Shown here: in pieces, positions 9,392-64,000 of the stretch | Layout: every line of letters starts with the position of its first letter | How positions within the stretch are numbered: position 1 is the first letter of the stretch | Source: a virus | DNA: 64,000 bases | Direction: 5' to 3' (one strand) | IMG/VR virus record: IMGVR_UViG_3300021136_000003 | Span: 1-64,000 of that record | Notes under the pieces: model-generated | Seen by the model: only the letters and a program-made list of their open reading frames with translations | Database searches by the model: none | What the model was told of the DNA's origin: nothing | Made by a program: the position numbers and the translations under genes

Positions 9392-9732
9392 TGAAAAGTT
9401 TGATTGTGCAAAGTTTGGGCAGCAGATTTTTGTTTGCGAGGGTTGGGCAGCCTGCTAGTGCCCAGTTCAGCGTGGGAGTAGAACCCGTATAGTTTAAATA
9501 CCCTAGGATTTGAACCACTTAAAGTATAAACAAGACTGATATCCTGCGTCATCTTAGCATGACAGTATCCGCGAAAATGTCCTTCATTGGAAAAGGGATA
9601 GTCGCTATTACCAAATTTGGCCAGTGGATTTTCTAGTTTGCTTTTTCTGAATTCTTTAAGGATGGCGCCGCATTCGGGATGGTTTCCTAATGTTGTTTTG
9701 AATCCACTTCCCTCTAAGAAAACGGCATTCAT
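9388..9732 (-). CDS. putative RelE/YafQ-like toxin-fold protein
   Basis: A 114-residue protein. The central region (HFRGYCHAKMTQDISLVYTL...FKLYGFYSHAELG) resembles the end of RelE/ParE/YafQ-type ribonuclease toxins, where a conserved histidine/tyrosine strand pair is followed by a GSHxEL motif. It overlaps the upstream 63-residue gene by 4 nt, a toxin-antitoxin-like arrangement. However, the upstream partner carries a capsid-targeting-like N-terminus, so an ordinary TA pair is not assured. Confidence 0.45.
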   Translation of the reverse strand: MNAVFLEGSGFKTTLGNHPECGAILKEFRKSKLENPLAKFGNSDYPFSNEGHFRGYCHAKMTQDISLVYTLSGSNPRVFKLYGFYSHAELGTSRLPNPRKQKSAAQTLHNQTFH

Positions 9733-20550: not shown

Positions 20551-20891
20551 GCCTTAAGGGTTTTGATAATGTATTCTTTTTCCTTTTTGTCAGAGAACTG
20601 GGTCCGACGCTTTTCAACATCACGACACCAATTTTCAACAGCTTCATAACTGCCCCAGGATCCGTGTGGAGCCGAGTGTTGAATCCAATTTGCGATTCCC
20701 TGCATCCCCGGACCGTTTGCCTGATCACCGCTTGATGCAGCCCTGAATAGATCACCTGCTAACATCGCAGACATAAAGCCACCCGGGTGGTAACCAAACA
20801 TCAAATAGTTTTCAATGGATTCTTGGGCGTGTTCTGGAACGTGGTCTCGGCTGTATTCATAATCAGTGTCGAAGTCGATAAACTTACTCAT
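20547..20891 (-). CDS. conserved small phage protein
   Basis: A 114-residue protein with YHPGGFMSAMLAGDLFRAA, a pattern found in small uncharacterised phage proteins (HPGxFLxAVLxNDL, then a tryptophan-rich end WGSYEAVENW). The start at 20891 forms an ATGA overlap with the upstream gene, so the longer frame to 20933 is unlikely. Function unknown. Confidence 0.7.
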   Translation of the reverse strand: MSKFIDFDTDYEYSRDHVPEHAQESIENYLMFGYHPGGFMSAMLAGDLFRAASSGDQANGPGMQGIANWIQHSAPHGSWGSYEAVENWCRDVEKRRTQFSDKKEKEYIIKTLKA

Positions 20892-21133
20892 GTCAATAAT
20901 ACTTCCATCATATATTCTTTGCTGCTGATACATGGTCGCTTAGGTTCCGTAAACCCGTATTTCATGGTAGTCTGCGTCGATTGACGATTTGCCGCTTGAG
21001 CGCAAGGAAAGCAAACCCAACGACCTTCGGTCGTGTTGAAGTGAGTTGCCTTGGGCTTTAGTTTGCTGTACGAGCACCGAAGTGTGGTACACACTTCCTC
21101 ATACTTGCCAGCACCCGATGAGTGATGATACAT
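20888..21133 (-). CDS. small cysteine-containing phage protein
   Basis: An 81-residue protein with two cysteine pairs (CTTLRC and CFPC), possibly a zinc site. Its start overlaps the stop of the upstream gene at 21133. Not recognised. Confidence 0.55.
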   Translation of the reverse strand: MYHHSSGAGKYEEVCTTLRCSYSKLKPKATHFNTTEGRWVCFPCAQAANRQSTQTTMKYGFTEPKRPCISSKEYMMEVLLT

Positions 21134-21762
21134 CAGACCACCTTCACACGGTTGAGTTGCGTTTGATTGTCGCGGTGTGCTTTCACAGTGCCGAGAATGT
21201 CAACAGTGACATTATCAGCAGGCTTGTTTTTCATGGAGAAGAACAGGGCTTGATCGTCCGCGGTAATCGCAGTCACATAATAGACTGACCATTGCTGCGA
21301 GTAGAAGGAGCGAAGCACCTCGACTGTCAGCTTGACCTTGTCACCGATTTGACCGATGAATCCACCTGCGGCGAACTTCACGCGATTGTCAACGGTGTCA
21401 CGTGCCTTGCCGCGCAGAAAGCTTGACGGGAAACTGCACACCACTGCCAATTCATAGTTGGTGCTAAGTTCCTCACGATGGCTCAGGGACATAGCGTTAC
21501 TGTCAAATTCAGACAGAACCTTGCCGGACAGAACCTTGAAAGTCAGTGCTTGAAAGTAGCGACGAACCTCACGACCTTGTTCCAGATCGGCTTCGTCAAG
21601 TGGCGCACTGTCAGGAGACAGGAGTTGCGTCATCAGTTGACGATTGCTGGTCTTTGTCTCCGGAGTACGCACATCGGGCCACTGAACGCCTTTGACGTAT
21701 TCGCCATTGATACGTTGAGCAGCACAAGCAGCACCAAAAACCAGTTCAGCAGGGTAGTTCAT
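21133..21762 (-). CDS. phage protein of unknown function
   Basis: A 209-residue protein. It contains helical N-terminal segments (EADLEQGREVRRYFQALTFKVL) and a C-terminal beta-rich half (GDKVKLTVEVLRSFYSQQW). It heads an operon of three overlapping genes and has a consensus promoter 30 nt upstream. No family recognised. Confidence 0.65.
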   Translation of the reverse strand: MNYPAELVFGAACAAQRINGEYVKGVQWPDVRTPETKTSNRQLMTQLLSPDSAPLDEADLEQGREVRRYFQALTFKVLSGKVLSEFDSNAMSLSHREELSTNYELAVVCSFPSSFLRGKARDTVDNRVKFAAGGFIGQIGDKVKLTVEVLRSFYSQQWSVYYVTAITADDQALFFSMKNKPADNVTVDILGTVKAHRDNQTQLNRVKVV

Positions 21763-48838: not shown

Positions 48839-49564
48839 ATGACTATTTATTATCTCTATGTTAAGACCCATAAAATAACAGGTCTTAAATATCTCGGCTA
48901 CACAGGAAAAGCAGACCCATATAAATACCTCGGTTCCGGTGAGTATTGGAAAACACATCTCAAAAAACATGGAAAAGAAATCACGACGGAAATATTACAT
49001 GAATGCCAATCTAAAACAGAAATCAAAGATCGCGGGTTGTATTACAGCGAATTATGGAATGTAGTGGATGCCTGTGATGTCCTGGGCAAAAAGACTTGGG
49101 CCAACCTAAAACCTGAAGCCGGGGAAGGTGGTGATTGTGGTCCTAAAGGACGAGCGGAAATTTCACGCAAAGGTAAAGGACGGACACATTCTGATCTAAC
49201 TAAGCGTAAAATGAGCTATTCACATACTGGTACCATAATGTCTGGCATTACCAAGGAAAAGATAGGACTTAAAAACGCCGGCAAGAAACACACGGATGCC
49301 TTCTGTGATTTACATCGAGGGCCCAATAACAAGTTTTTTGGTACAGGCCCGTTTAACGGAAAAACTCACTCCATCGAGACTAAGGAGAAGATTAGTGCCA
49401 AAAATACAGGGAGAAAGCACACCGAGGAGGCCCGTCTAAACATAAGCAAAAAGATGGCCGGAATAAAAATGGCTGAAGTGACTTGTCCCCATTGCTCCAA
49501 AGTAGGAGCAGGAGGGGCAATGAAACAATGGCACTTTGATAAGTGTAAGTTTAACCGAAGGTGA
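48839..49564 (+). CDS. GIY-YIG homing endonuclease with NUMOD3-like repeats
   Basis: A 241-residue protein. IYYLYVKTHKITGLKYLGYT is the GIY-YIG pair, KYLGSGEYWKTHLKKHG follows. There are three NUMOD3-like repeats (SDLTKRKMSYSH, SIETKEKISAKN, TEEARLNISKKM). It ends in CPHCSK...HFDKC. It lies between the clamp and the polymerase C-terminal gene and shares its leader and C-terminus with three other homing genes. The stop region overlaps the polymerase gene by 14 nt. Confidence 0.87.
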   Translation: MTIYYLYVKTHKITGLKYLGYTGKADPYKYLGSGEYWKTHLKKHGKEITTEILHECQSKTEIKDRGLYYSELWNVVDACDVLGKKTWANLKPEAGEGGDCGPKGRAEISRKGKGRTHSDLTKRKMSYSHTGTIMSGITKEKIGLKNAGKKHTDAFCDLHRGPNNKFFGTGPFNGKTHSIETKEKISAKNTGRKHTEEARLNISKKMAGIKMAEVTCPHCSKVGAGGAMKQWHFDKCKFNRR

Positions 49565-50798
49565 ATAGAGAATCAACTGTAGAGTTGGTGTCTGTATTGG
49601 AACGTAAGTCCCAGTTCATAACACCGAGTAAGTTGTCGATCTTTTCATCAACTAACGTCTTTTCCATTAATAGATTGTCGAACGGAAGTTCTTTGAACCA
49701 TTCTGGCAATCTCATTTCATCAACTGGGTATGCAATGCTGGTGTAACCCAATGGGTTGTTTTTCAGCTTACATACCACAATCTTCATGCCATCCATGATC
49801 TTCATTGAGTAGTTGTCGTTATGGACTCGACGCAGCCAGTTCCAGTTGATAGCAGCCCGAACGTGACCAGGCATGTTTGCCCTGCCTGTTCGACTTTTCT
49901 CTTCCGCTTCACCATACATCGTCAGCTTGTTAACTGACTTAGGCGAACCCTTTGTCCATCCGTCTTGGTTGCCCAATTCAGTTTTGAACGTCTTGATAAC
50001 CTCAATGATATCCTGACGATCTTTACCATCAAGGACCATCTCCAACACTCGCATCAGGAACTCTTGAACATACTTAGGTGTGTCAGCGCGTTTCAGATCA
50101 AGACCCATAGCCTTGATTTGACCAATGCCGAATCTGACACCGTTCTTCTTAGCCTTGTCCATGTCATACTGATCCAGACGCTTGCCTTCTTTGTCGTAGA
50201 TGTTCAGAGCATACCGCTTCTTAGTGATAAACAACGACCGATCAGCAACCAGTTCTCGACCTGCTTTGATGATTTCGCCGTTCTTGCGTGGAGCATGAAA
50301 CGACTTCTCCATAAAGCCAGCGAACCCGTCATTGATCTGATCAGCGATATTGTCGTACAACTGAATAGCAACGTCTTTGCTCCAAGTCATTGTGCTAGCA
50401 GCAACTTCATCCTTCATCAGAGGCCATGCAGAGAAATAACAAGAGTCAGTGTCACCGTATACGATTGCTTGCCCGGTGTAGTCATACTCTCCGGTGACGA
50501 TTTCATTGATGTGTGCGCTCATGTGCTTCACAATCTGCCTGCCTGATAGAGTAACCGATTGACCGATACGCTTATCGTAGAAACGACAGTGTTCATTCAA
50601 CAGGGCACCGTAAGCTGAGTTCAACAAAATCTTTCTGACCAGTTGTCGCTTGTCCCAATAATCTGTAAATTCCTTTATTTTCTCCTGTGAAGCGACTATC
50701 TTCCCATTTTTAATCACAAGGTTATGCAACTTCATATATTGTCGCAATTCCGATACATTTCTGGTTTTTACCAAGTGTTTAATATGTTCTACATCCAT
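49551..50798 (-). CDS. 43: DNA polymerase gp43, C-terminal part
   Basis: A 415-residue fragment of a family B polymerase. KILLNSAYGALLNEH (about 56-70) is motif B with K56, N60, Y63 and G64. YGDTDSCYFS (about 112-121) is motif C with the two catalytic aspartates. The C-terminus ends SLFTFG, like the clamp-binding tail SLDFLFG of T4 gp43. It has no exonuclease domain or motif A; these are encoded at 51526-53217. The start MDVEHIKH has no good ribosome site. Confidence 0.9.
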   Translation of the reverse strand: MDVEHIKHLVKTRNVSELRQYMKLHNLVIKNGKIVASQEKIKEFTDYWDKRQLVRKILLNSAYGALLNEHCRFYDKRIGQSVTLSGRQIVKHMSAHINEIVTGEYDYTGQAIVYGDTDSCYFSAWPLMKDEVAASTMTWSKDVAIQLYDNIADQINDGFAGFMEKSFHAPRKNGEIIKAGRELVADRSLFITKKRYALNIYDKEGKRLDQYDMDKAKKNGVRFGIGQIKAMGLDLKRADTPKYVQEFLMRVLEMVLDGKDRQDIIEVIKTFKTELGNQDGWTKGSPKSVNKLTMYGEAEEKSRTGRANMPGHVRAAINWNWLRRVHNDNYSMKIMDGMKIVVCKLKNNPLGYTSIAYPVDEMRLPEWFKELPFDNLLMEKTLVDEKIDNLLGVMNWDLRSNTDTNSTVDSLFTFG

Positions 50799-50821
50799 TT
50801 TTGCATAATCTTTCTGTCAAT

Positions 50822-50829
50822 GATAAATA
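50822..50829 (+). promoter_or_regulatory. T4-type late promoter motif for homing gene
   Basis: GATAAATA on the plus strand, then TATTTATAGGAG and the ATG at 50848. Confidence 0.6.
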
Positions 50830-50847
50830 GTATTTATAGGAGATAAT

Positions 50848-51546
50848 ATGGGGTTAAATAAAAAATACAATGAAAGCACTTACTCTGCTGCCGTAAAAAA
50901 ACTCGGTTACACCGCGTTGGAACCTTATAATGGTATCACCTTTAAAATAAATCATATGTGTCATACCTGTAACAATATTTGGAATACGCAACCCAGGCAA
51001 GTCTTGAATGGAATAGGTTGTCGTCATTGTTTCCAGTTGAGAGTTCGCAAACCGATTGACTTGGTAAAGACGAGTTTATTGCCCGGTCAATGGGAAATAG
51101 TTGACGATAACGAATACAAAAACTCATATTTACCGCTGCATTTTAAACACCATTGTGGTCATATAGTAAAGTCTTCCCTCGAGGTAATATTACGCACTGA
51201 CGAACACCGCAAACGTTGTCCGGTTTGCACCCCACATAAAATAAGAGAAGGAACGTGGTCAAAACCAGTCGAACATGATGGCCGTAAATATTCATCAACC
51301 TTGGAGGCAACGTGCTGTGAATATCTTATTGGTAAGTTTGGATTATCGGATATCATATTACAAAAAGAATATTCGGTTGATGATAGAAGAACAGCGGATG
51401 CATATATTAAAAGTTTGGATACTTATGTAGAAGTTAGCAGTATAGGAAAAGAATGGTATTTAGAAAGGATTTACAGAAAACGGGATCTTGTAAAAAACTT
51501 CATCTTCGTGTCATCCCTTTCTCAACTACGGACTATGATTAAGTAA
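50848..51546 (+). CDS. putative homing endonuclease, VSR/PD-(D/E)xK-like
   Basis: A 232-residue protein. The N-terminal half has zinc-knuckle pairs (CHTCNNIW...GCRHC and CGH...CPVC). The C-terminal third has EYSVDDRRTADAYIKSLDTYVEVSS. Its D...E-V-S pattern resembles the core of very-short-patch-repair/PD-(D/E)xK nucleases, where Lys is replaced by Ser. AGGAG lies upstream. The gene occupies the interval that splits the DNA polymerase and lies on the opposite strand. The end overlaps the N-terminal polymerase gene by 21 nt. Confidence 0.7.
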   Translation: MGLNKKYNESTYSAAVKKLGYTALEPYNGITFKINHMCHTCNNIWNTQPRQVLNGIGCRHCFQLRVRKPIDLVKTSLLPGQWEIVDDNEYKNSYLPLHFKHHCGHIVKSSLEVILRTDEHRKRCPVCTPHKIREGTWSKPVEHDGRKYSSTLEATCCEYLIGKFGLSDIILQKEYSVDDRRTADAYIKSLDTYVEVSSIGKEWYLERIYRKRDLVKNFIFVSSLSQLRTMIK

Positions 51547-53217
51547 AGCTACCATTTCATCGTCTACATCTATCCCCGCGGCAAGTTCAGAACAGAGTTT
51601 CATTTTCCGTTGTTGAGCCTTACGATCACTGTACCACTTACCAAGTAGTCCCGGGATGATACCTTGATTAGCATACGAGAAGATCGTGCCGTTCGCACTG
51701 ATCATCCATGGATTGTGACTGTCAAAGATCATCTTCCAGATTTCAGCAGCACTTTTCTCCTCAGTGCGTCCATCTTCGTAGTCAATCGTCAGCAGAGTGC
51801 CGCGTTCTTGGTTCATGATCGAGGTGTATTCTAACGACCCGAACAAACCTTCCCAGAGGACACTTCCCGTCACATCATCGTCGCCATCTTTGTGGCGTTT
51901 CTTCTCACGTGCCAGTCTCATGCCCTTTTCGTGCATGAACTGATCTGTCAGTGTTTGTCTGACCTGAGCAATGATGGTTTCTGGCGCCATGTTAAGCGCC
52001 CGGATCGTTGAGGGATAGAGCGAGTTAATGTCAACTGCTCCGACCCATTCGTGAATTCCCTTTTTGGGAGTAGCAACATAGGCACCTGCCGCTTGTTGTT
52101 GGATATCATCATTTTCAACCCTTCGTTTTTTATCAGGAACTACCAGACCATGATCATGAGCTTCGTTCATGATCGCCATTTCAACCATTGCCACTGTACC
52201 CATGACAACCGGAATCAACACGGTGTTTTCGTGTGCCAGTTGATTTGCCAGTTCAAGAAAGTGAACTTTAGCATGGATCTTATATACCAACTTCGTATCT
52301 TGTCTGTTGTATTCAATGAACTTTTTGAAGTCTTTGTTATACAACTGATCCAGAGTACCCTCGTATGAAGTCTTGTTTTCGTGAACTTCTAACTCGCCAA
52401 TAGCATCTAGTTTGTAGCTGTGGCGACTCTCGTAGTTGTACTTTTTGTAGAGTTGAAGATAGTCAAGATGAATACGACCGATCAAGTCGTAAGTTGTTTC
52501 TTCTTTGCCGAAGCGTTCGTATGTGCGAGCCTTAGGTAGCTGACCTAGTAAACAGAACTTTCGTGTGTCGTTCTTGCTCATAACTCGGGTGACACGATTA
52601 ACCATGTAGGGTATGTCGTATCCTTCAGAGTTCCAACCAGTTAACACATCGGCATCGTCAATCAACTGAAAGAACACATCGAACATGTCCTTCTCACTGG
52701 TGAACAGCATGGTGTCCTCGAACGAATCGCAGATTTCTTGTGCTGTCTCCGGCGTCATGTGCTTAGGAGCAATGACAAGAGTGACAAGACGATCAAGCCA
52801 GTCAAGATACATTGAGATAGCAGTGATCTTGTTCATCGCTTCTGATGCAGGGGAGAAGCCTTTGTCAGGATCGAAGTCAGTTTCAATGTCGAAGAAGCAA
52901 GTGTGAAGTTTGGGAGCATCAATGTTGCGATAGTTCTCACTAAGGCATCTGCCCACAACGCCAATATCACTCTCAAACATTTTCTTGCCGGAGTTTATTC
53001 GTCGTTCTTTTTCAAACTCTGTTCGCTTTCGGCAGGAGAATCGACTGACCGGGAGTGCGGTGCCCGCACTCAGCCCGCGATACTTGCCTTTGGGATCCGC
53101 GTAGTAAAATGTATAGTTTGCCTGATACTCTTTATACTGACGCTTACCGTCCTTGTCCCGTTCTACAACAACGATCTGCTCAGAGTCTTTATTGTGGATT
53201 GCGTCAACAAATGACAT
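51526..53217 (-). CDS. 43: DNA polymerase gp43, N-terminal part
   Basis: A 563-residue fragment of a T4-type polymerase. FFDIETDFD (about 108-116) is exonuclease motif I, GWNSEGYDIPYM is Exo II and YNRQDTKL is Exo III. DINSLYPS is polymerase motif A. The chain stops after the helix KWYSDRKAQQRKMKL (fingers) and LLNHSP. Motifs B and C are on the downstream gene. Together the two parts give about 978 residues versus 898 in T4 gp43. They must associate in trans or be spliced. Confidence 0.92.
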   Translation of the reverse strand: MSFVDAIHNKDSEQIVVVERDKDGKRQYKEYQANYTFYYADPKGKYRGLSAGTALPVSRFSCRKRTEFEKERRINSGKKMFESDIGVVGRCLSENYRNIDAPKLHTCFFDIETDFDPDKGFSPASEAMNKITAISMYLDWLDRLVTLVIAPKHMTPETAQEICDSFEDTMLFTSEKDMFDVFFQLIDDADVLTGWNSEGYDIPYMVNRVTRVMSKNDTRKFCLLGQLPKARTYERFGKEETTYDLIGRIHLDYLQLYKKYNYESRHSYKLDAIGELEVHENKTSYEGTLDQLYNKDFKKFIEYNRQDTKLVYKIHAKVHFLELANQLAHENTVLIPVVMGTVAMVEMAIMNEAHDHGLVVPDKKRRVENDDIQQQAAGAYVATPKKGIHEWVGAVDINSLYPSTIRALNMAPETIIAQVRQTLTDQFMHEKGMRLAREKKRHKDGDDDVTGSVLWEGLFGSLEYTSIMNQERGTLLTIDYEDGRTEEKSAAEIWKMIFDSHNPWMISANGTIFSYANQGIIPGLLGKWYSDRKAQQRKMKLCSELAAGIDVDDEMVALLNHSP

Positions 53218-54253: not shown

Positions 54254-54331
54254 TTATTTTAGCTTAGGTTTACCGAATACAGTTTCGCGGATAGTCTGTC
54301 CGGTCTGTAGTTTGCGCTCGTATAATCTCAT
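54254..54331 (-). CDS. 25-residue reading frame, possibly truncated gene
   Basis: A short frame (MRLYERKLQTGQTIRETVFG) whose ATG overlaps the stop of the upstream gene (ATGA). It ends 2 nt after the homing gene. It may be the start of a gene truncated when that element inserted, or a real micro-protein. Confidence 0.35.
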   Translation of the reverse strand: MRLYERKLQTGQTIRETVFGKPKLK

Positions 54332-55179
54332 TTTCCTGTCCAGACGGCGTATAGTCCGGAGTTATATTCACCACTATATACAGTGCTTAACTTAGTTTTT
54401 ACAGCGGCTTCTAATTCTTTCCCGGTGTCATTGGGCTGCACATCAAATGCAAAGTATAAGGAACCATACCCGCCCTTACCAATATACTGTCCGCCTAATT
54501 GTCCCATGATGATGTCAATCGTCTGATCAGCCTTTTTATTACGTTTTTCATCATACTGTTTATCGCCTCTCCGGGCGTAGGGATCTATTTTTATGGTAGT
54601 TAAATTATCATCATGGACAGACACATACCCTTTCATATCCACGCCCGGGATTCCTGATATGCTAACCCAGTTCTTGCGGCCGCCAGGTGTTTGACTTGTC
54701 CCGGCTAGTAATGGTAACTTCAATATAGTCAGCACAATGCCGTATAATGCTTTGGCCAGACCTATGCCACGATAGTCCTCGTCAACTGTGATTGTTCCAA
54801 CTTTAACAGCATTCTTCAGGGGAAAAGATTTTGCCTTATCCACAGTAAGTTCACCGATTAATTGACCCGGTGCTTTTAGTTTTTGTTGTTCTCGTTCCCA
54901 GTCGCGTACTCTACCATGGAATCGACGGCGTTGAATAACTGGCTTTGATTCTGCACCTCTTCGTTTAGCCTGAATAAAGTCTTCTCCGTTCGGATCCCAA
55001 ATTCTAATAGCGGTGCTTCCCCAGTTACCACTCCCTATACTGTACAAAAGACCGCTGCCACCTGGTAAGGCAGATACTTTCTTGCCGGAGTCTGTGCCAC
55101 CTAAATAGCCCTTACCACCTTCGTAATCGTCAGGTCGTAGTCGTTCAATCCCCTCATTGATAAATTCATTTGCTCTCAT
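54328..55179 (-). CDS. tagged GNAT-like acetyltransferase, candidate head-packaged protein
   Basis: A 283-residue protein. The N-terminus MRANEFINEG fits the pattern of T4 capsid-targeting peptides, with a predicted cut after INE. Residues about 150-190 (VGTITVDEDYRGIGLAKALY) form a GNAT acetyl-CoA loop. The rest is basic, with a Gly-rich section (GGQYIGKGGYGSLYFA). It overlaps the metallopeptidase gene upstream by 4 nt and has a CCGGAG ribosome site. The acceptor is unknown. Confidence 0.7.
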   Translation of the reverse strand: MRANEFINEGIERLRPDDYEGGKGYLGGTDSGKKVSALPGGSGLLYSIGSGNWGSTAIRIWDPNGEDFIQAKRRGAESKPVIQRRRFHGRVRDWEREQQKLKAPGQLIGELTVDKAKSFPLKNAVKVGTITVDEDYRGIGLAKALYGIVLTILKLPLLAGTSQTPGGRKNWVSISGIPGVDMKGYVSVHDDNLTTIKIDPYARRGDKQYDEKRNKKADQTIDIIMGQLGGQYIGKGGYGSLYFAFDVQPNDTGKELEAAVKTKLSTVYSGEYNSGLYAVWTGK

Positions 55180-55751
55180 TGGAATATCTCCGGATGTTCC
55201 TTGCCGTATATCTTGATATACTTTCCGGCCATGGCATCAGCCAGTACTTCGATGGGGCTGCCGGGATAACTGTCGCCGTCTTTGACCATGCCCATCTGAT
55301 ATTGTCTGGTATGGGTGAGTTCGTGGAAAACAGTACGGAGAATGTCAATAAGGTTTCTGTTCCCGACATAAATCCAGATCGTGTTGGCAGCAGGAGTGTT
55401 CAATCCAGTGTGGTGACCTTCTCTGGCTGCGTCTGAGTCTTTGCTTAGAGTGATCTTGGGATATGGTTGTTGAATATGCAGCACTTCTATAGCCCACTTG
55501 ATGAAGTCTCTGGTTTGTTCGTCTGAATTATCATCACCTTCTTCGTGTAGTTTGTCTTTGATCAGATCATGTGGCGACTTAAGGTGCTTTCGTTTGAACA
55601 TATCATGTAGTGCATCGTCTGTAAGATTATGTCTACGGGCAATTTTGTGCATAAGATTGTCAAGGGCACTGTGACCGTGAGTAAGGTGGCTTGGTAGTTG
55701 ACGCTCTAGGTCATTTAAAGCTGATTCTGTGATAAATTGATTGGCGCGCAT
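55176..55751 (-). CDS. tagged zinc metallopeptidase-like protein, candidate head-packaged protein
   Basis: A 191-residue protein. The tag is MRANQFITES. FHELTHTRQYQ contains HExxH, and about 20 residues later GSPIEVLADAMAG provides the glutamate ligand, as in gluzincin-type peptidases. A long His-rich helical stretch separates tag and catalytic part. The start lies 4 nt after a CATAAATA late motif. It is probably a protease delivered with or acting on the head. Confidence 0.72.
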   Translation of the reverse strand: MRANQFITESALNDLERQLPSHLTHGHSALDNLMHKIARRHNLTDDALHDMFKRKHLKSPHDLIKDKLHEEGDDNSDEQTRDFIKWAIEVLHIQQPYPKITLSKDSDAAREGHHTGLNTPAANTIWIYVGNRNLIDILRTVFHELTHTRQYQMGMVKDGDSYPGSPIEVLADAMAGKYIKIYGKEHPEIFQ

Positions 55752-55755
55752 AGTG

Positions 55756-55763
55756 TATTTATG
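55756..55763 (-). promoter_or_regulatory. late promoter motif (CATAAATA) near a start codon
   Basis: CATAAATA on the minus strand, then CACT and the ATG at 55751. It is a one-base variant of the GATAAATA box. Confidence 0.45.
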
Positions 55764-55872
55764 CTAGGGAGAATAAAGTGTCGCTCTTTAAATAAACCCG
55801 GGCACGACTCCATTGTTATTAGGGTGAGCGACGACCCCACACACGCAACTAAGTTGCGGTCCTAAGGTGTGT
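55764..55872. other. non-coding interval with inverted repeats
   Basis: No reading frame is evident. CGCAAC-TAA-GTTGCG (plus strand, about 55845-55859) is a perfect 6-bp hairpin. It is enclosed by ACACAC and GTGTGT on its two sides, giving a nested stem. The element lies directly after the stop of the 521-residue gene and could be a terminator-like or processed RNA structure. Confidence 0.45.
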
Positions 55873-57438
55873 TCAGGTAAAATACGGATCAACGATAACA
55901 ATGGTGCCGTCTCGCCGCATCATTGCATTCTCGGTATGAAGGTCCCAACCGAGTCCAGATTTGAGTCCAGCATGATACAACCTGGACATTGTCAAATATA
56001 ATATTCCGAATTGTTTGCTGACTACCGGGTCAGCGAATCTCTCAGCAATCAACTGAGGCATCTCCTGCCAACTAGGAGGCCAAGTACCCGGCTTCTTCAA
56101 CATGCTGACTACATTGCTCCAGGGCGCTCTGATCTTTGCTAGATCACTCAGCAACCACACTATGCGTTGCTCAAAGCTTTTGTCTGGAATCGGCAACAGT
56201 CGTTCCATTGCGATTTGTCTATACGGCGTCCCGTTAATTTCAAACACAGTAGTTCCTTGCCCACCAATATCAATAAATCGCGGCAGATTAGGTAACTCCG
56301 GATGCTTTTTACAGAATTCATAAAAGGTCATAAAGCCTTTTTCAGCATTGGTGACATCACTTGGCAAAGTGCGTCTGGGCATCAGAATCTTGATGACATG
56401 ATTATCATCCTTCGCCCACACTGTGGCGTCAGCACCGTGACCTAACTTCTTGTATCCGAGCCCTTCTAACTTGGAGAAGATTTGTCTGCTGTTGGGAGTA
56501 TCACGCTCGTATTCATCTAATTTATCCGGCATAAGTTTAACCACTCGAGGCTTGAACAACTGTATGTCACCTTTATTTGTCCGCAAGGTTGGCTGGTTAT
56601 GTTTGTCCTTACCGAAGCCTTTAATCTCAGCAGGACTGTTCTTAAATTTTCCCTTCAAAATTTTGTCACCGGTGTGTAGTGTTGGCGGACTATAGGAATC
56701 CTCAGCGACGAGATGTTTATCATCACCTGACTTTTGCCATGCGTCCCACATTCCTCTACCCGCTGTAGTTCGTTGAAAACTAGGTCTTATATCATTGCCC
56801 AACATCTTCGCATACGCATACATAGTGGATGCTACACCTTTATTTCTATATTTTGGATCAACTTCAGTGCCGCCACTTTCCATGTATCCATCGTTCGTAT
56901 CATCTTCCCAGTCAAATATTTGAAACAATATTTGACCTATTTCTTTATTACCATCATATGCTTTAATGTTCAACAATGGTTCATCCATAAATATCTCAAC
57001 TGACGCTTTGTAAGTATAATCACCAATCTCTTGAGTATGATTGAATTTTTTATTAAGAATATCAGGATTTATTGTTTCGTCTAACTTCTTTGACGCATAC
57101 GCCACGGGAACTGTCTTCATTCCGGCGAGCCAGAACGCAACCATACGATGGCGACCTTCCATGACGAATAGATCAGGATCGCCCTGCTCCACATACATTG
57201 GCATCGGAGTGGCACCTTGTTTCAACAGACGAAGAATCTTGTTTGTTCGCCGTTCGTCTTTGGGAAACTCATTGAAGGTTCCGTGCATCTCTTTGATCTG
57301 ACCCAGGAACTTGTCAATAGGTTCATGCTTGATATGAACTTCAATCTGATCAGGTTCGGCGTGTAGCCATTGAGCCACGCTGACCAGATCCTCTCTTGTA
57401 GGATCTATTGTTTCGTATAGAAATATATGGGCTCTCAT
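55873..57438 (-). CDS. tagged ParB-like/GNAT-like/kinase-like multidomain protein
   Basis: A 521-residue protein with tag MRAHIFLYET. Residues about 35-115 end in FVMEGRHRMVAFWLAGMKTV, a ParB/sulfiredoxin-like motif. Residues about 190-225 (KYRNKGVASTMYAYAKML) resemble a GNAT loop. Residues about 325-521 form a kinase-like domain. It has LGHGADATVWAKDDNHVIKIL as the Gly loop and lysine, GWDLHTENAMM as the catalytic loop and IVDPYF in place of DFG. It is probably injected to modify host proteins, but activity is untested. Confidence 0.7.
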   Translation of the reverse strand: MRAHIFLYETIDPTREDLVSVAQWLHAEPDQIEVHIKHEPIDKFLGQIKEMHGTFNEFPKDERRTNKILRLLKQGATPMPMYVEQGDPDLFVMEGRHRMVAFWLAGMKTVPVAYASKKLDETINPDILNKKFNHTQEIGDYTYKASVEIFMDEPLLNIKAYDGNKEIGQILFQIFDWEDDTNDGYMESGGTEVDPKYRNKGVASTMYAYAKMLGNDIRPSFQRTTAGRGMWDAWQKSGDDKHLVAEDSYSPPTLHTGDKILKGKFKNSPAEIKGFGKDKHNQPTLRTNKGDIQLFKPRVVKLMPDKLDEYERDTPNSRQIFSKLEGLGYKKLGHGADATVWAKDDNHVIKILMPRRTLPSDVTNAEKGFMTFYEFCKKHPELPNLPRFIDIGGQGTTVFEINGTPYRQIAMERLLPIPDKSFEQRIVWLLSDLAKIRAPWSNVVSMLKKPGTWPPSWQEMPQLIAERFADPVVSKQFGILYLTMSRLYHAGLKSGLGWDLHTENAMMRRDGTIVIVDPYFT

Positions 57439-57821
57439 TGTAGTTCTGATAGATCAATGTATTTAATCGAAGTGCCTTTATATGCTGCTGCCAACGCACG
57501 ATGATTGCCGTCGATGATCCTATGCTCAGATATCACAATAACTTTGTCAGCTAATGTTGGATCATTCATGTAGCGTTCAAGAATTTCTTTCTGATCCGGG
57601 GCCATCATGTCAACAATTTCATCAAGGTGCTCGACCCGGTATTGACCAAGCAACATGATTTCTATTTTGTATCGGGGCATCGTATGAATCATCAACGGCG
57701 TGTCAAGATCCATTGTTCCTATCTCATCCCATAGAGATTCATCGCGCCCCGGAAGATCACTGTCGTATAAATCATTCAGCGTTGTTTGCTGACTCTCGGA
57801 TAGAAACTCTGTGGCTCTCAT
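57435..57821 (-). CDS. tagged ParB-like protein
   Basis: A 128-residue protein with tag MRATEFLSES. The C-terminal part IIDGNHRALAAAYKGTSIKY is the DGNHR-type motif of ParB/sulfiredoxin-fold nucleases and NTPases. It overlaps the previous gene by 4 nt. The role is unknown; the same fold is repeated in the neighbouring 521- and 700-residue proteins. Confidence 0.72.
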   Translation of the reverse strand: MRATEFLSESQQTTLNDLYDSDLPGRDESLWDEIGTMDLDTPLMIHTMPRYKIEIMLLGQYRVEHLDEIVDMMAPDQKEILERYMNDPTLADKVIVISEHRIIDGNHRALAAAYKGTSIKYIDLSELQ

Positions 57822-57822
57822 A

Positions 57823-59646
57823 TTAGTCTGCCGGTTGAACGATGAGTTCCCGTCGTTGCTCCGGTGTTAGTCCCATTTGATTTACTATCTCAATCGCTCG
57901 GTCATATGCGCCGGCGTTTACGGCGCCCGGTGGCGCCATAAATGGTTCGCCAATGTGTTCACCGGTATTACGATTAACAAGCGCCCACGGGACCATACCA
58001 GGCGTAGTGCCGGGTTGAGTTGTTTCAGGTTCCCAATCTTGATTAGGAGTCAGATAACCGGAGCGTGTTCTGATGCTAGCAGCCGGCGCTGCTACTTCGG
58101 GGCCCTGTTTCTTAATATTTCTTTGTAGCTGTACCTGCTTGATGAAGCTTTTTAGGGCGGCTGCTGGCATATCACCGGCGACATACTTGGCGAAGATACC
58201 AATCGGATCGCCTTCACCCTTTGGGGCCAGGATCTTGTACAGCTTCTTCAGATATTCTTTGCGATACTTCTGTGGATCACTTGCGGCGTCAAGCGCAACT
58301 ACAGTTCTCAACAACGTATTTTCAATCTTGTCGAAGTTATCATCTAACCAATCGCCGCCGGGCGATCTGAACTCAATGTAGTCACCTTTGTTGTTGATGC
58401 TGATGTATTTGTCTGTGTTGCCACTGTGAATTGCTTTTGACGCAAACTTGTCAAGACCTGAACGCATCTTTTCCAGAACTGCTTTGGCATCTGCATCACG
58501 TGTCATTGCGTATTGCTTTACTTTGGCCAGTGCTGACTTACAGAATGTGTTTGCTTCACGCCCGAATTGTTCAAGTATGTAATCATCTCCGAGCAACAGA
58601 GCAAGTTTAACATAGTCTCTGTCGGCACCTTGAGGCACGCTGACATTGATGTGAAGACCGGTTGATTCGTTTGTGTAGCAACCGGTCTCATCTGCCCATG
58701 CTTTAACTTTCTTCAGATCAGCGATGATATCAGGGATAGACATCGGCGGACTGATGAATTCCAGACCACCATCTTCAGGTTCATTCGGTGAGTCAAGACT
58801 TCCGTCCGGTTCAAGTGAGTATGCAGTTGGAGAACGACCGGCACGATGATATCCACCGGTTATGACTTTCTTACCCATTGCTTTGCTGAACATCTCACCG
58901 ACTGAATCCATGTCAAGCTCACCGGCTTCAGGCGCGGTGCGATACGGCCATGTAATAGTGTAGTTATTTTCCACATCACTCATGCGACGGAGGTTGTTAT
59001 CACGTAGGAAGTCACGTTGATCAGGACATTCCCAATCATTTTCCCATTCTTCACGGGCCTTGTCATATAACCTGCCTTGAGAGTCCCATTCTTCTTCTAC
59101 TTTTTCATCAAATGCTTCTTCAGCAACGGTAACGGCTCGGACCCAGTTATGATACGCCGGCGTATCAGGTAACTCTTTACTTGTCTGTATGCCTTTTGCA
59201 GAGTCTCCACCGTCTTTGGCTTCGTCTTTTTCTTCTGCGGTGAATCCAAGATCATTCATTGCTTGATCGATTGCTTCGTCGGCGTCCCAATCATTTTCTT
59301 CCATGTATGTTTTCAGCAGTTCTTTACCTTCTTGGTGCCACTGTTCAGATTGTTGCTCCATGCCCCATTCAGAGTAAGCATCTTCAAGTTCGTCACGCAG
59401 CATTGCTAAATCTCTACGATCATTGTAGCCATCGCCGCCGTTAAAGAAGCGGATGATATAGTCTATATCATTGGCCTGCTCATCCATACTATAGTCAGGC
59501 ACAGATTCGTAGTCATTGTCTGGCCCACCTGCGTTCGGGACATACATCTCAAACTCCATGCCTGCCATGGCGTTGATCTTCTCGGCGTCCCTTCTCAGGG
59601 AGTTCGGATTCATTGCTATTTCGTTTAAAAACTCTAATGCTCTCAT
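57823..59646 (-). CDS. tagged amidoligase-like protein
   Basis: A 607-residue protein with tag MRALEFLNEI. GMEFEMYVPNAGG (about 29-41) and GLEFISPPMSIPDIIADLKK with STGLHINVSVP are the hallmarks of amidoligase/glutamine-synthetase-like enzymes. A long acidic coiled region lies between them. Such enzymes form amide bonds between amino groups and carboxylates. The start lies near an ACTAAATA motif (59652-59659). It is the largest enzyme of the tagged cassette. Confidence 0.7.
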   Translation of the reverse strand: MRALEFLNEIAMNPNSLRRDAEKINAMAGMEFEMYVPNAGGPDNDYESVPDYSMDEQANDIDYIIRFFNGGDGYNDRRDLAMLRDELEDAYSEWGMEQQSEQWHQEGKELLKTYMEENDWDADEAIDQAMNDLGFTAEEKDEAKDGGDSAKGIQTSKELPDTPAYHNWVRAVTVAEEAFDEKVEEEWDSQGRLYDKAREEWENDWECPDQRDFLRDNNLRRMSDVENNYTITWPYRTAPEAGELDMDSVGEMFSKAMGKKVITGGYHRAGRSPTAYSLEPDGSLDSPNEPEDGGLEFISPPMSIPDIIADLKKVKAWADETGCYTNESTGLHINVSVPQGADRDYVKLALLLGDDYILEQFGREANTFCKSALAKVKQYAMTRDADAKAVLEKMRSGLDKFASKAIHSGNTDKYISINNKGDYIEFRSPGGDWLDDNFDKIENTLLRTVVALDAASDPQKYRKEYLKKLYKILAPKGEGDPIGIFAKYVAGDMPAAALKSFIKQVQLQRNIKKQGPEVAAPAASIRTRSGYLTPNQDWEPETTQPGTTPGMVPWALVNRNTGEHIGEPFMAPPGAVNAGAYDRAIEIVNQMGLTPEQRRELIVQPAD

Positions 59647-59650
59647 ACGA

Positions 59651-61753
59651 TTATTTAGTCAGTGGTTTATTTGTCCCAGCTAACCTGCTAATCGCACGTT
59701 TCATACCAGAATTACGATCTTTCTTACCTGTGAGTGTATCAGTCATTGCTTTGCCAAGATAACTCTTTACTGCGGGATCACTGATTTCATCCATCTCTTG
59801 ATTGAACTTGCCTTCGAAGTCCTCCTGTTCATCTGGGCCAGGTGCTTCTGGTGTTGAAGGGACAAGACTATCATAGTCTTTCATTGTCAGAGTTCTGCCA
59901 CGTTGGCAACCTGCTACTAGCTTTTCAGCAAGATCATGTAGAGCCATATCGTCAGCCGCATCTTCCTTGGCAAACTCAAGCAGTCTGATCAGCAATGGAA
60001 CGTCAAGCTTCACCACATCAGCGGGGTTCATCGCCTGCTCTGGTTTAGATAGCAGTCCTGATTTAGGGCGACGACGGTCAGCAGATAGAACTACATCATC
60101 TTCTGTGATTTCACCTTCAGCAACGTTAGATGCTCCGGTTGCCGCCGGGTGCAGGTTATTAATGATACGTTTAAGGCCGGCTATTTCTTTCATCAGTTTG
60201 GCAATCTCTGCGTCGTGGCGCTTATCGTTCTTTTCAGTAATGTCTAGTCCTCGCTGCATCCACTTGTTCATGGCTTCATCAGGGCTTAGAGTAGCACCGT
60301 AGTGTCGCTGCGCCCACTCAGATTTGCGTCTTAATTCCGGGTCATTAGATTGTGCCACAGAAGGATTAGCACTAACATCTACGTGCTTGTTCTTATCAGG
60401 GCCCACCATGTTTATCGGGCCAGACTTCTTACCTGCTTGAGGTTGTGCTGCAACAGCCTGTCCTGCTGGTAGTGTATTTGCTTCCGCCACACCTTGCCTA
60501 GATTTAACGTGTCTATATCCAGTTTTATAATCTTCTGCATCCTGTTCGCTGTTGTGGATATTGTTATATGACTTTTTTCTGTGGGCATCTAATCTGCCTT
60601 GCTCATATGGGGTCGGGGTGCTACCAGAATGTTTTGTTTTGCGTGGTGCTGAATGGTCGTTAAATTTTGGAGATGTAGGATCCTTGTTCAACAAATCAGA
60701 TATGGAGCCTTCCGCCACACCTTGCTCTTTGTCGGCTGCGCCAGTATCTTTAGTAGTATGTCTCGTAGAGAAATACTTTTCAGTTTTTCCTAACTGTTTT
60801 GGTTTAGCATTTTGTTTTTGCCATTCTTTTTTATCGTCTGCTTCCGCCACACCTTGCTGACCTTTAATGCCAACATAGGCTTTAATAGTAGAGATCCCTA
60901 ATGCTTTTGCTACATTGGCTCTGTGATAGCCATCTAATATATTACCATCACTACCAACTACTATAGGGGGAGCCTTGCTAAAGTCCATCTTTTTGTATTG
61001 CTCTACTTTTGTTCTATCTAATCCTGACAATTCAGTTCTGATGGAATTTAGTGGGATATTTTTTAGCACAAACTTGCTGTTCGTATTAGTAAGATGATTT
61101 AGATAATCGGGGTGTAGATTCTCATCGTGGTGCTGTCTTAGATACGCAATCATATCTTCTGTAGACATATCATTAGAGAAGCCTTCCGCCACCTTCTTAT
61201 TCTTGTTATCAAGCATACCACGCTTGTTGGCGGTTGCCCAGGCGATATTTTCTGCTTCTTTCGAGGACTTGCCAAGTTTCTTCTCGCTTGATTTGACATG
61301 ACCGACCATGCGATCTACCTTGGCGCCTTCTTCGACTGACTCATACTGGTATGTACCAAACGCATTAGCATAATTGCGGCCATCTTCTGTGTCGGTATGC
61401 TCCTTATCACCGGTACCGTTGCAAGTTGGGCATATAACTTTAGTGGCACCTTTCTTATTGTCTGGGTATAGTTTGCCACCGAGTTTATACTGCACCTTGC
61501 GACCATGACAAGCAGTGCAGTTTGTATTCTGGTGTTTGATAGTTTGACCGGGCATGTGATCTACATCATGCGGGAAACCCTCGCCTTCGTGTAGGCTGTT
61601 AGCATACTTCGCTGAAGTTTTGATACCTTTGAGTAGATTGCTACCTTTAAGTTTCTTCTCCGGAGTGCGCTTTTGAACGGTTTCAAATGGTTGAGCGAAT
61701 GTTGCTACAGCGCCTGCAGTTGTTGAACATTCTTCGAGGTGTTTGATTTGCAT
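59651..61753 (-). CDS. modular 700-residue protein with repeated GVAE sites
   Basis: A 700-residue protein starting MQIKHLEECS, a tag-like end. VAEG/VAEA motifs recur about every 60-200 residues (NKKVAEGF, QGVAEADD, QGVAEGSI, QGVAEANT, SNVAEGEI). Between them lie unlike modules: two DnaJ-like CxxCxG sites (CTACHG and CPTCNGTG), a ParB-like ILDGYHRANVAKALG, and helical parts. At DNA level CTTCCGCCACACCTTGC repeats three times. This looks like a head-internal protein built from cassettes, perhaps cut at each VAE. Confidence 0.65.
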   Translation of the reverse strand: MQIKHLEECSTTAGAVATFAQPFETVQKRTPEKKLKGSNLLKGIKTSAKYANSLHEGEGFPHDVDHMPGQTIKHQNTNCTACHGRKVQYKLGGKLYPDNKKGATKVICPTCNGTGDKEHTDTEDGRNYANAFGTYQYESVEEGAKVDRMVGHVKSSEKKLGKSSKEAENIAWATANKRGMLDNKNKKVAEGFSNDMSTEDMIAYLRQHHDENLHPDYLNHLTNTNSKFVLKNIPLNSIRTELSGLDRTKVEQYKKMDFSKAPPIVVGSDGNILDGYHRANVAKALGISTIKAYVGIKGQQGVAEADDKKEWQKQNAKPKQLGKTEKYFSTRHTTKDTGAADKEQGVAEGSISDLLNKDPTSPKFNDHSAPRKTKHSGSTPTPYEQGRLDAHRKKSYNNIHNSEQDAEDYKTGYRHVKSRQGVAEANTLPAGQAVAAQPQAGKKSGPINMVGPDKNKHVDVSANPSVAQSNDPELRRKSEWAQRHYGATLSPDEAMNKWMQRGLDITEKNDKRHDAEIAKLMKEIAGLKRIINNLHPAATGASNVAEGEITEDDVVLSADRRRPKSGLLSKPEQAMNPADVVKLDVPLLIRLLEFAKEDAADDMALHDLAEKLVAGCQRGRTLTMKDYDSLVPSTPEAPGPDEQEDFEGKFNQEMDEISDPAVKSYLGKAMTDTLTGKKDRNSGMKRAISRLAGTNKPLTK
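60481..60497. repeat. direct repeat in the modular gene (copy 1)
   Basis: CTTCCGCCACACCTTGC, which on the minus strand encodes QGVAE. Identical copies lie at 60709-60725 and 60841-60857, with a shorter copy at 61183-61195. Confidence 0.85.
60709..60725. repeat. direct repeat in the modular gene (copy 2)
   Basis: Identical 17-nt unit CTTCCGCCACACCTTGC at a module boundary of the 700-residue protein. Confidence 0.85.
60841..60857. repeat. direct repeat in the modular gene (copy 3)
   Basis: Identical 17-nt unit CTTCCGCCACACCTTGC; spacing to copy 2 is 132 nt, an in-frame module of 44 residues. Confidence 0.85.
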
Positions 61754-62561: not shown

Positions 62562-62569
62562 TATTTATC
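62562..62569 (-). promoter_or_regulatory. T4-type late promoter motif for homing gene
   Basis: GATAAATA on the minus strand, ahead of leader hairpin D. It overlaps the stop of the gene at 62565. Confidence 0.6.
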
Positions 62570-63824
62570 TTTTTGTTTTGCCATCGGCCCGGGCAAACTG
62601 AGGAATTCCTGATCTTTTTATTCCACCTAACCCTAATTTTTTAGCATTTACTTGGATCGTATCCGGCTTGATATCTACAGTTAACGCTGTTTTGTATCTT
62701 GGATCATTCTTTTGAGCGTTGCTTGGGATGTAACCTGATGCTGATTCAAACATCGCGTCTACATCTTTTGATGCGACACTTATATTACTGACTGGGACCG
62801 GAGAAGTAATCACAACTTCATATTCTGCACCAGGAGTATATTTACCTTGTAGTCCTGTCGAATCTATAGCCAGTAGTGCCAGAGTTTCATTCTCATCGAA
62901 CTGATCACCTAACCAATTCATCAGCGCATCTTCGACTGATACCTTATCGGGGAAACAGAATATACCAGATTGTTCGTTGTATATTTGTGCTGATCTACTT
63001 CCTACTTTCGGTATCAACCCTTTACTCATTATGCCAGGCAGATTCTTCGCCGGAGTCACATGATACAATACTTTAGGAAGAGTAGACGTTGATTCTTCCA
63101 ATTGAGAATACTGTCCCTCGATACTCAATCTTCTGGAATGAAGTTTATCTCGCAGAGCATACAGCTTAGTGATCTGGCCAGTTGTTCGTATTGCTTTGTA
63201 TGCAAGATTCTCTGGTCCGAACTCGCCGCCTTGGTCAAGCCCTGCTTGTCTGTAGCGATGTATTGTTTTGATCAGATGATTTATCTTATTCAGGTCAGAT
63301 GTTTTCAACGCTCTGTCTATCAACTTCGACAGTTTTTCATACTTCGCAGCCGTTGCTGTTTGATCGAAGTTTGCTCTACGCTTACTTGGGATTCTGATCC
63401 ACTCATCACGCAGAATACTATACTCACCGACGCTTGTAACCTGATGATTTGAATCCTGAATGTACAACTCAACTGGAATGTGTCTGATTGTTATGTCGTG
63501 TGTGTCGTTATAGATTGTCTTTTTCGCATCAAACAACTCCAGATACATTGCGTCATTATTTAACTTCGACATATCCACAAGTAGATGTAAATCTAGATCA
63601 GAGTGTTTCGTATAACTGTATGCTGCGTTTGAACCGGAGATTGTGATATCAACCACGTTAATATCAGACAGACCCATTTCTTCAATGAAATCTTCAGCGA
63701 TGATTTTCAGTTGCTTTTCAACTTCAGGATGTAGGTGACGACCTCTGAAAAGTTTAGGGTTCAGTTCCGTGTGAAAAGTCACTGCGTCTGCCAGTTTAAA
63801 TGAGTCGAGTTCTTTGAGATCCAT
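62565..63824 (-). CDS. nucleotidyltransferase - ADP-ribosyltransferase-like fusion
   Basis: A 419-residue protein from MDLKELDSFKLADAV. ISGSNAAYSYTKHSDLDLHLLVD has the GS...DxD site of MNT-type nucleotidyltransferases. About residue 255 onward, LYHVTPAKNLPGIMSKGLIPK resembles the opening of ADP-ribosyltransferase folds (H-x-T, then a helix ending in GL), with ASGYIP in the ART core. T4 Alt is an injected ART, so an effector role is attractive. The start follows GATAAATACTTG; a longer frame reaches 63857 through that motif. Confidence 0.6.
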   Translation of the reverse strand: MDLKELDSFKLADAVTFHTELNPKLFRGRHLHPEVEKQLKIIAEDFIEEMGLSDINVVDITISGSNAAYSYTKHSDLDLHLLVDMSKLNNDAMYLELFDAKKTIYNDTHDITIRHIPVELYIQDSNHQVTSVGEYSILRDEWIRIPSKRRANFDQTATAAKYEKLSKLIDRALKTSDLNKINHLIKTIHRYRQAGLDQGGEFGPENLAYKAIRTTGQITKLYALRDKLHSRRLSIEGQYSQLEESTSTLPKVLYHVTPAKNLPGIMSKGLIPKVGSRSAQIYNEQSGIFCFPDKVSVEDALMNWLGDQFDENETLALLAIDSTGLQGKYTPGAEYEVVITSPVPVSNISVASKDVDAMFESASGYIPSNAQKNDPRYKTALTVDIKPDTIQVNAKKLGLGGIKRSGIPQFARADGKTKR

Positions 63825-63828
63825 CAAG

Positions 63829-63836
63829 TATTTATC
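63829..63836 (-). promoter_or_regulatory. T4-type late promoter motif abutting a start codon
   Basis: GATAAATA on the minus strand, then CTTG and the ATG at 63824, identical to the arrangement at 5064. Confidence 0.55.
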
Positions 63837-64000
63837 GGATAGATTTACAATGGTCAAAGTGGTGCCTCTTCATAACTACGCACCCGCCGGATTTGCCACA
63901 ATGTGGACAAGTTATCACCTCTTGCTTTCGCCCTCTTAGTTGCGCTGATCGGTTTTCAATAACTTCAGGTCGTTGTTTTCTGCCAGTTACCGTAGCAGTT
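63832..64000 (-). CDS. partial homing endonuclease, C-terminus only
   Basis: The frame enters from the right edge. It ends with a NUMOD3-like stretch (RPEVIENRSAQLRGRK) and the zinc finger CPHCGKSGGCVVMKRHHFDHC. This matches the C-termini of the GIY-YIG genes at 8443 and 48839. Its stop codon lies inside the late motif of the next gene. The nuclease domain must lie beyond 64000. Confidence 0.75.
   Translation of the reverse strand, partial: TATVTGRKQRPEVIENRSAQLRGRKQEVITCPHCGKSGGCVVMKRHHFDHCKSIR

Follow-up and report, generated by a model that had tools for sequence, protein, structure and literature searches.

Unrelated proteins with one N-terminal tag suggest that a large freshwater T4-like phage packs several enzymes in its head

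Introduction

Why do five neighboring phage genes, whose products have unrelated bodies, start with almost the same nine residues? The question is raised by a cassette of genes between positions 54,328 and 61,753 of a 64,000-nucleotide stretch of viral DNA (the window), which is part of IMG/VR record IMGVR_UViG_3300021136_000003, a viral contig of 121,109 bases. The original prediction took this N-terminus for the head-targeting peptide of T4 internal proteins, which the prohead protease gp21 removes, and the cassette for an exchangeable set of effectors injected into the host. The shared tag, MRAxEF[I/L]xE, suggests that the phage packs several enzymes in its head, and these are probably delivered to the host along with the DNA. 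We consider it very likely that the tag is a T4-type capsid-targeting propeptide, cut by a protease of family S77 to free an enzyme cargo that is delivered to the host.

The T-even internal proteins, a few small anti-restriction proteins, are the textbook example of a common head-loading tag. Mullaney and Black (1996) and Repoila (1994) are said to have dealt with the capsid-targeting sequence (CTS) of these proteins, IPI to IPIII. In the mechanism that we propose, the nine-residue N-terminus would bind the scaffold core of the prohead and bring the attached protein into it. A gp21-type S77 prohead protease would cut after Glu9, with Ile or Leu at P3 and Glu at P1, and thereby free the mature protein within the head. 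Fused versions such as the 700-residue protein of the cassette would be diced by S77 at VAE↓[G/A] (the arrow marks the predicted cut) into separate small modules. Once freed, the proteins would exit together with the DNA and act inside the host.

Results

A tag found mainly at gene starts

A second IMG/VR contig overlaps the source contig over 79,012 bp with 100% identity, and the join yielded 184,075 bp of one phage, called FULL below (FULL position = 184,076 minus window position, strand flipped). FULL carries T4-like markers according to PHROGs, namely, rIIA, tail tube, large terminase, and replicative helicase, with gp23 present as a C-terminal fragment only. The phage, a large freshwater virus of bacteria, is T4-like by these markers.

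The five N-termini reported for the cassette, MRANEFINE, MRANQFITE, MRAHIFLYE, MRATEFLSE, and MRALEFLNE, were exact. The genes are on the minus strand, the coordinates quoted earlier being their stop ends. FULL adds two tagged genes, MRAHEFITE and MRASEFINE, approximately 1 to 2 kb before the large terminase gene, and all seven starts fit M-R-A-x-[E/Q/I]-F-[I/L]-x-E. A genome-wide search of FULL with M[RKQ]xxxF[LIVM]xE, of the kind that the original prediction had proposed, matched 7 start-region Met codons and none of 893 internal ones. In the automatic gene list there were 6 matches, compared with 0.02 expected after shuffling within each N-terminus or 0.06 after shuffling columns, and no more than 2 were obtained in any of 2,000 shuffles. 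The same pattern was present at 33 start-region sites versus 1 internal site in 75 related loci, which had been picked via the 700-residue protein and not via the tag.

Two other N-termini had been listed with the tags, MQIKHLEE of the 700-residue gene and MQIKEILTE of the gene at 9729. Both lack the tag pattern, and the bare motif [LI]xE[GAS] is no more frequent close to the N-termini of this genome than expected (15 occurrences versus 15.7); we therefore discarded them as tag evidence. The 700-residue gene retains a place in the system through its five internal VAE↓[G/A] sites rather than its N-terminus.

A DNA pattern search revealed at least 120 IMG/VR contigs in which MRAxEFIxE starts precede unrelated bodies, whereas a permuted DNA pattern of the same letters had no match in IMG/VR. 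Among the viral matches listed, 119 of 121 were at most 50 codons from an upstream in-frame stop (median, 7). Bacterial and archaeal genomes (257 Gb) gave 58 pattern matches, with 10 of 48 within that distance and a median of 211, indicating that the tag as a gene start is a phage feature. In a set of 27 records, the pattern occurred 71 times, spread over 24 of them, versus 0 times for the reversed control pattern. A tagged family of approximately 125 residues (..YRFGxAxAG..) was observed shortly before the large terminase gene at L100:1218-1981 (FULL 20718-21481) and in many of the loci L109 to L228, often in two copies; it had no PHROG match.

The tag resembles the T4 capsid-targeting sequence

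Over 211 non-redundant tagged proteins, sequence entropy was near zero at positions 1, 2, 6, and 9 and low at positions 3, 5, and 7, with values of 0 to 0.9 bits at positions 2, 3, 5, 6, 7, and 9 and approximately 4 bits from position 10 on. The searches preselected positions 2, 6, 7, and 9, but not the sharp edge after Glu9. Residues 1 to 12 had no confident structure in the models of both the 521- and the 607-residue proteins. In 11 aligned relatives of the metallopeptidase-like protein, Glu9-Ser10-Ala11 is invariant and residues 2 to 8 vary, their starts including MRANQFITE, MLTEHIIIE, MISNNFIVE, MRFNEILSE, and MIADDILTE. This is the pattern that a protease site would demand.

T4 IPII and IPIII both start with MKTYQEFIAE. 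Genetic work on T4 assigned targeting to residues 4 and 7 of that sequence and processing to residues 8 and 10 (PMC9026906). F6, I7, and E9 of the tag align to CTS residues 7, 8, and 10, and the end of the tag fits a gp21-type site, [LI]xE, at which cutting is predicted from sequence. T4 gene 61.1 (L229:18966-19130, minus strand), annotated as hypothetical, also has a CTS-like start, MKTFKEFIKE.

The same type of site separates modules of fused proteins

The predicted prohead-protease-type site at the end of the tag also lies between the modules of fused proteins. We compared the tagged bodies (residue 10 onward) with all long open frames of all loci and obtained 141 non-redundant places in which a homologous untagged module lies within a longer protein. 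The P1 residue before the internal module was Glu at 107 of the 141 junctions (9.8 expected), and [LIVMF]xE preceded it at 87 (2.8 expected; maximum of 8 in 1,000 random draws), with such a junction in 16 of 20 module families. For instance, one phage has MRAEEFITE↓DLRKWFKEKWVRFG and another has ...EEQLEE↓DLRKWFKEKWVRFG, and MRANQFITE↓SALNDL in the window corresponds to KKKTAVAE↓SAVSDL in L013.

Fused proteins of the window show the same arrangement. The 700-residue protein contains five internal VAE↓[G/A] sites, versus 0.11 expected, which lie between small modules. Its sites and the [LIVMF]xE motifs before fused modules indicate that the end of the tag and the internal sites represent one type of element. 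In the 521-residue protein, LVAE↓D directly precedes a module that carries the tag MRAIEFINE in L064, and the N-terminal helical module of the 191-residue protein recurs within a cyanophage polyprotein, after IGE↓G. A 46-residue module of the 700-residue protein (VDRMVGHVKSSEKKLGKSSKEAENIAWATANKRGMLDNKNKK, residues 142 to 187 of the product of 59651-61753) is common to dozens of phage contigs, mostly with 70 to 90% identity; no matches to it were found in Pfam, NCBIfam, or cultured phages.

Similarly tagged enzymes are present in cyanophage virions

In cultured cyanophages, homologous modules are found in proteins encoded near terminase genes. Purified virions of cyanophage S-CREM2 contain 52 phage proteins (PMC10665884). 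Among them, the S-adenosylmethionine hydrolase starts with MKDFDSFLEE, the APH-like kinase with (V)KRFDAFLTE, and the cytidylyltransferase with MKNFSSFLTE; other non-structural proteins start with MKDLHSFLTE and MQTFSMFFSE, and a Cas9-annotated protein has RFASFMAE↓A at residues 18 to 25. With patterns that were refined or chosen after inspection of the data, F[LIVMF][STAN]E was present in the first 30 residues of 5 of 52 virion proteins versus 0 of 134 other S-CREM2 proteins (P = 0.0015), and the looser F[LIVMF]xE was present in 7 of 52 versus 4 of 134 (P = 0.012). ORF160, which shares cargo modules, and ORF156, a homologue of the product of 62565-63857 in the window, were also detected in S-CREM2 virions. 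In cyanophage S-SCSM1, the virion NMNAT starts with MKSFLQFLKE↓A. A small annotated virion protein of that phage, S-SCSM1_93 (L251:31627-31836), ends with ..KRTFKEFLEYIE, like a capsid-targeting tag placed at the C-terminus.

The S-CREM2 paper is silent on targeting or cleavage sequences (PMC10665884), and the tag reading of these proteins is thus made in the present analysis. Literature searches for the capsid-targeting sequence together with cyanophages returned only a T4 review, and those together with metagenomes returned nothing.

Prohead protease and evidence against the capsid-targeting reading

The gp21-family S77 protease (PF03420) and the tag are present together in 13 of 13 related records of at least 200 kb; most of these records were found through the tag or the cassette genes and three through portal-like or gp23-like neighbors. 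The gp21-type protease sought in the genome of the window phage was not found in the 184,075 bp of FULL in a six-frame search with profiles of S77 and gp23, and gp23 is represented there only by a C-terminal-like open reading frame (ORF) of 99 residues (L099:17548-17847).

These two absences weigh against the capsid-targeting reading, as do the restriction of the S77 count to these related records and the after-the-fact choice of the S-CREM2 patterns. So do four further points: the virion proteomics comes from cyanophages without the MRA motif; CsCl preparations can contain contaminants, as the S-CREM2 authors themselves state (PMC10665884); the S-CREM2 virion kinase has no detectable homology to the window kinase; and MRAHIFLYE, with Ile at position 5, deviates there and is the weakest copy of the tag.

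Regarding the protease, a related phage genome of 260 kb, G039, has the same gene order as FULL around thymidylate synthase, an epimerase, the terminase, and a tagged gene. It encodes a portal-like protein, an acidic core-like protein, S77, a scaffold-like protein, and gp23 with a cut-like LLSE↓SSAG. Since the head set of this relative is complete, the assembly of the window phage, rather than the phage itself, probably lacks the head block. The 99-residue gp23-like ORF is conserved in approximately 14 other contigs. We rejected it as the capsid gene of the window phage because the same fragment is located approximately 105 kb from the true gp23 in G039.

Discussion

The T4 internal-protein reading of the original prediction was sustained by the CTS match, the edge at the cut, the module junctions, S77 in the large relatives, and the tagged virion enzymes of S-CREM2 and S-SCSM1. 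As for the exchangeable effector cassette, the variable bodies fit it, and an effector function in the host is presumed. Sequence features and analogy with relatives argue strongly for packaging and cleavage in the window phage. Injection into the host with the DNA would follow by analogy, and we infer the actions and host targets of individual enzymes.

That the tag is a targeting and cleavage propeptide, but that the proteins stay in the head for assembly or DNA condensation, is unlikely, although several observations would suit it: T4 IPIII affects head assembly (PMC9026906), many tagged proteins outside the window have small, basic, or glycine-rich bodies, and the 125-residue tagged family lies near the terminase. 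On the other hand, the bodies in the window are enzyme-like (amidoligase, zincin, GNAT plus kinase), and T4 injects its internal proteins, which inhibit restriction enzymes (PMC12373910). It is quite improbable that the peptide addresses proteins elsewhere, to the membrane or a phage compartment, and that a different protease cuts at Glu. The origin of the virion data in phages without the MRA motif and the failure to find the protease in the 184,075 bp of FULL would agree with another address; the match to the T4 CTS, the mass spectrometric detection of equivalently tagged cyanophage enzymes in virions, and the presence of S77 in all large tagged relatives argue for the head.

The common N-termini could also be a DNA element without protein function, arising by start-region recombination or as a translation-initiation module, given that the tag begins genes and that several cassette genes overlap their upstream neighbor. 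We regard this as very improbable. The Ala, Glu, and Ile of the tag are each encoded by several synonymous codons that vary between copies, which shows that the constraint acts on the protein; moreover, the DNA 5′ of the tags is dissimilar between copies, and internal VxE sites repeat the Glu and P3 residues within a different DNA context. A relic of gene duplication, with starts inherited and bodies replaced without selection, would fit the clustering of tags in one operon but is equally improbable, since one orthologous family keeps E9 while residues 2 to 8 are free, the reverse of passive inheritance, and at least 120 contigs have tags on unrelated bodies.

The capsid-targeting reading has precedents. 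T-even phages already provide an example of exchangeable internal proteins with a common leader (PMC3012670, PMC12373910), and the present system is therefore a variant and not a new principle. As with IPI to IPIII (PMC9026906, PMC3012670, PMC12373910), the bodies are unrelated, only a short N-terminal leader is common to them, its aromatic residue, Ile/Leu, and terminal Glu are at equivalent places, and the loci are exchangeable. In contrast to the T-even leader, the tag MRAxEF[I/L]xE is one residue shorter, its bodies include candidate enzymes of up to 607 residues, some versions are fused and modular, and the MRA-tagged system is known from uncultured phages only. What is new relative to the T-even system is that this one is enzyme-rich and partly polyprotein.

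S-CREM2 and S-SCSM1 (PMC10665884, PMC9602691) similarly have a kinase, a nucleotidyl- or cytidylyltransferase, and module proteins, but the N-termini of their virion enzymes are MK-x-F-x-x-F-[L/M]-x-E, without the MRA motif. The system also resembles the polyvalent proteins of phages and conjugative elements, which combine many disparate domains and whose entry into the host along with the DNA has been predicted (PMC5512222): the 521-residue protein (GNAT plus kinase fold) and the modular 700-residue protein each hold several disparate effector-type domains. Processing of polyvalent proteins is expected from their own zincin or assemblin-like domains (PMC5512222), whereas here the predicted prohead-protease sites would be cut in trans and the majority of modules are encoded as individual tagged genes. 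Pfam and NCBIfam recognized no zincin or assemblin-like domain in the 700-residue protein, and the zincin candidate of the cassette is a separate tagged gene. SPN3US and phiKZ likewise process many of their ejected proteins with a head maturation protease (PMC5694885, PMC10052503), but these phages belong to another lineage and have another cut motif.

On balance, we favor a broader view in which large aquatic T4-like phages would have a general head-loading system of one propeptide and one maturation protease for an open-ended, rapidly reshuffled set of enzymes, with modules switching between one gene with one tag and protease-diced polyproteins, and with fused effectors freed by the protease before injection. 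If the reading is true for many freshwater and marine phage proteins, the tag would be a simple predictor of packaged, first-delivered proteins, may explain why cyanophage virions contain enzymes so far unaccounted for, and would point to candidate anti-defense or host-takeover proteins. The role of prohead-protease sites in fused proteins would become directly testable.

Cassette genes and genome context

The features of the cassette are given in Table 1. The amidoligase and metallopeptidase labels of the original prediction are borne out by the domain and the invariant motif given there. The kinase-like label of the 521-residue protein agrees with a weak Foldseek match to an aminoglycoside-phosphotransferase/choline-kinase-like fold, and this protein also holds a GNAT domain (PF00583, E = 0.0012, just under the Pfam cut-off). 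The two structure models had moderate mean pLDDT values (65 and 67), making fold matches class-level hints. For the 128-residue protein, the ParB-like label is a reading of a motif by eye, as is the GNAT label for the 283-residue protein, and neither has a Pfam or NCBIfam match. Homologues of the 283-residue protein start with MKIKDILAE and MKYSEIISE, and the 128-residue protein is fused into longer proteins in L005 and L221. Amidoligase homologues are present in three jumbo-phage records, two of which are the same phage, Atu_ph07; the 700-residue and kinase proteins had no homologues among cultured phages.

Table 1. Tagged genes, predicted cut sites, and a neighboring gene (window coordinates)
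Feature	Coordinates	Strand	Remark
Tag MRANEFINE of 283-residue gene	55153..55179	-	Regex
Tagged 283-residue protein	54328..55179	-	GNAT-like motif YRGIGLAKALY by eye; no Pfam match
Tag MRANQFITE of metallopeptidase-like gene	55725..55751	-	E9-S10-A11 invariant in 11 relatives
191-residue zincin-like metallopeptidase candidate	55176..55751	-	HELTH at residue 143; invariant HEL-x-H
Tag MRAHIFLYE	57412..57438	-	Ile at position 5
521-residue multidomain protein	55873..57438	-	GNAT ~125-240; APH/choline-kinase-like domain ~313-521
Internal VAE↓D site, E246 of 521-residue protein	56701..56709	-	
Tag MRATEFLSE	57795..57821	-	
128-residue protein	57435..57821	-	ParB-like DGNHR motif by eye
Tag MRALEFLNE	59620..59646	-	
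607-residue amidoligase-like protein	57823..59646	-	PF12224 in 5/7 homologues
700-residue modular protein	59651..61753	-	Zinc-ribbon-like part, 46-residue module, ParB-like part, others; VAE↓[G/A] between
VAE↓G site, E190 of 700-residue protein	61184..61192	-	
VAE↓A site, E304 of 700-residue protein	60842..60850	-	
VAE↓G site, E348 of 700-residue protein	60710..60718	-	
VAE↓A site, E424 of 700-residue protein	60482..60490	-	
VAE↓G site, E546 of 700-residue protein	60116..60124	-	
430-residue nucleotidyltransferase-like neighbor, without tag	62565..63857	-	Homologue of S-CREM2 ORF156 (30% identity, E 9e-33)

Elsewhere in the window, the DNA polymerase is encoded by two ORFs (49551-53217), with an endonuclease-like ORF on the opposite strand between them (50848-51546), and ORFs resembling GIY-YIG-type homing endonucleases are numerous and dispersed (8443, 10623, 48839, 53604, 61831, and elsewhere). 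Just past the end of the window, an 805-residue protein (L080:1507-3924) has an adenylyltransferase-like domain fused to a RelA/SpoT-type hydrolase domain. Another ORF of the window phage, L099:5674-6552, has a signal-peptide-like, porin-like start (..ASAQVTVYGMVREYVDN..), possibly pointing to a betaproteobacterial host.

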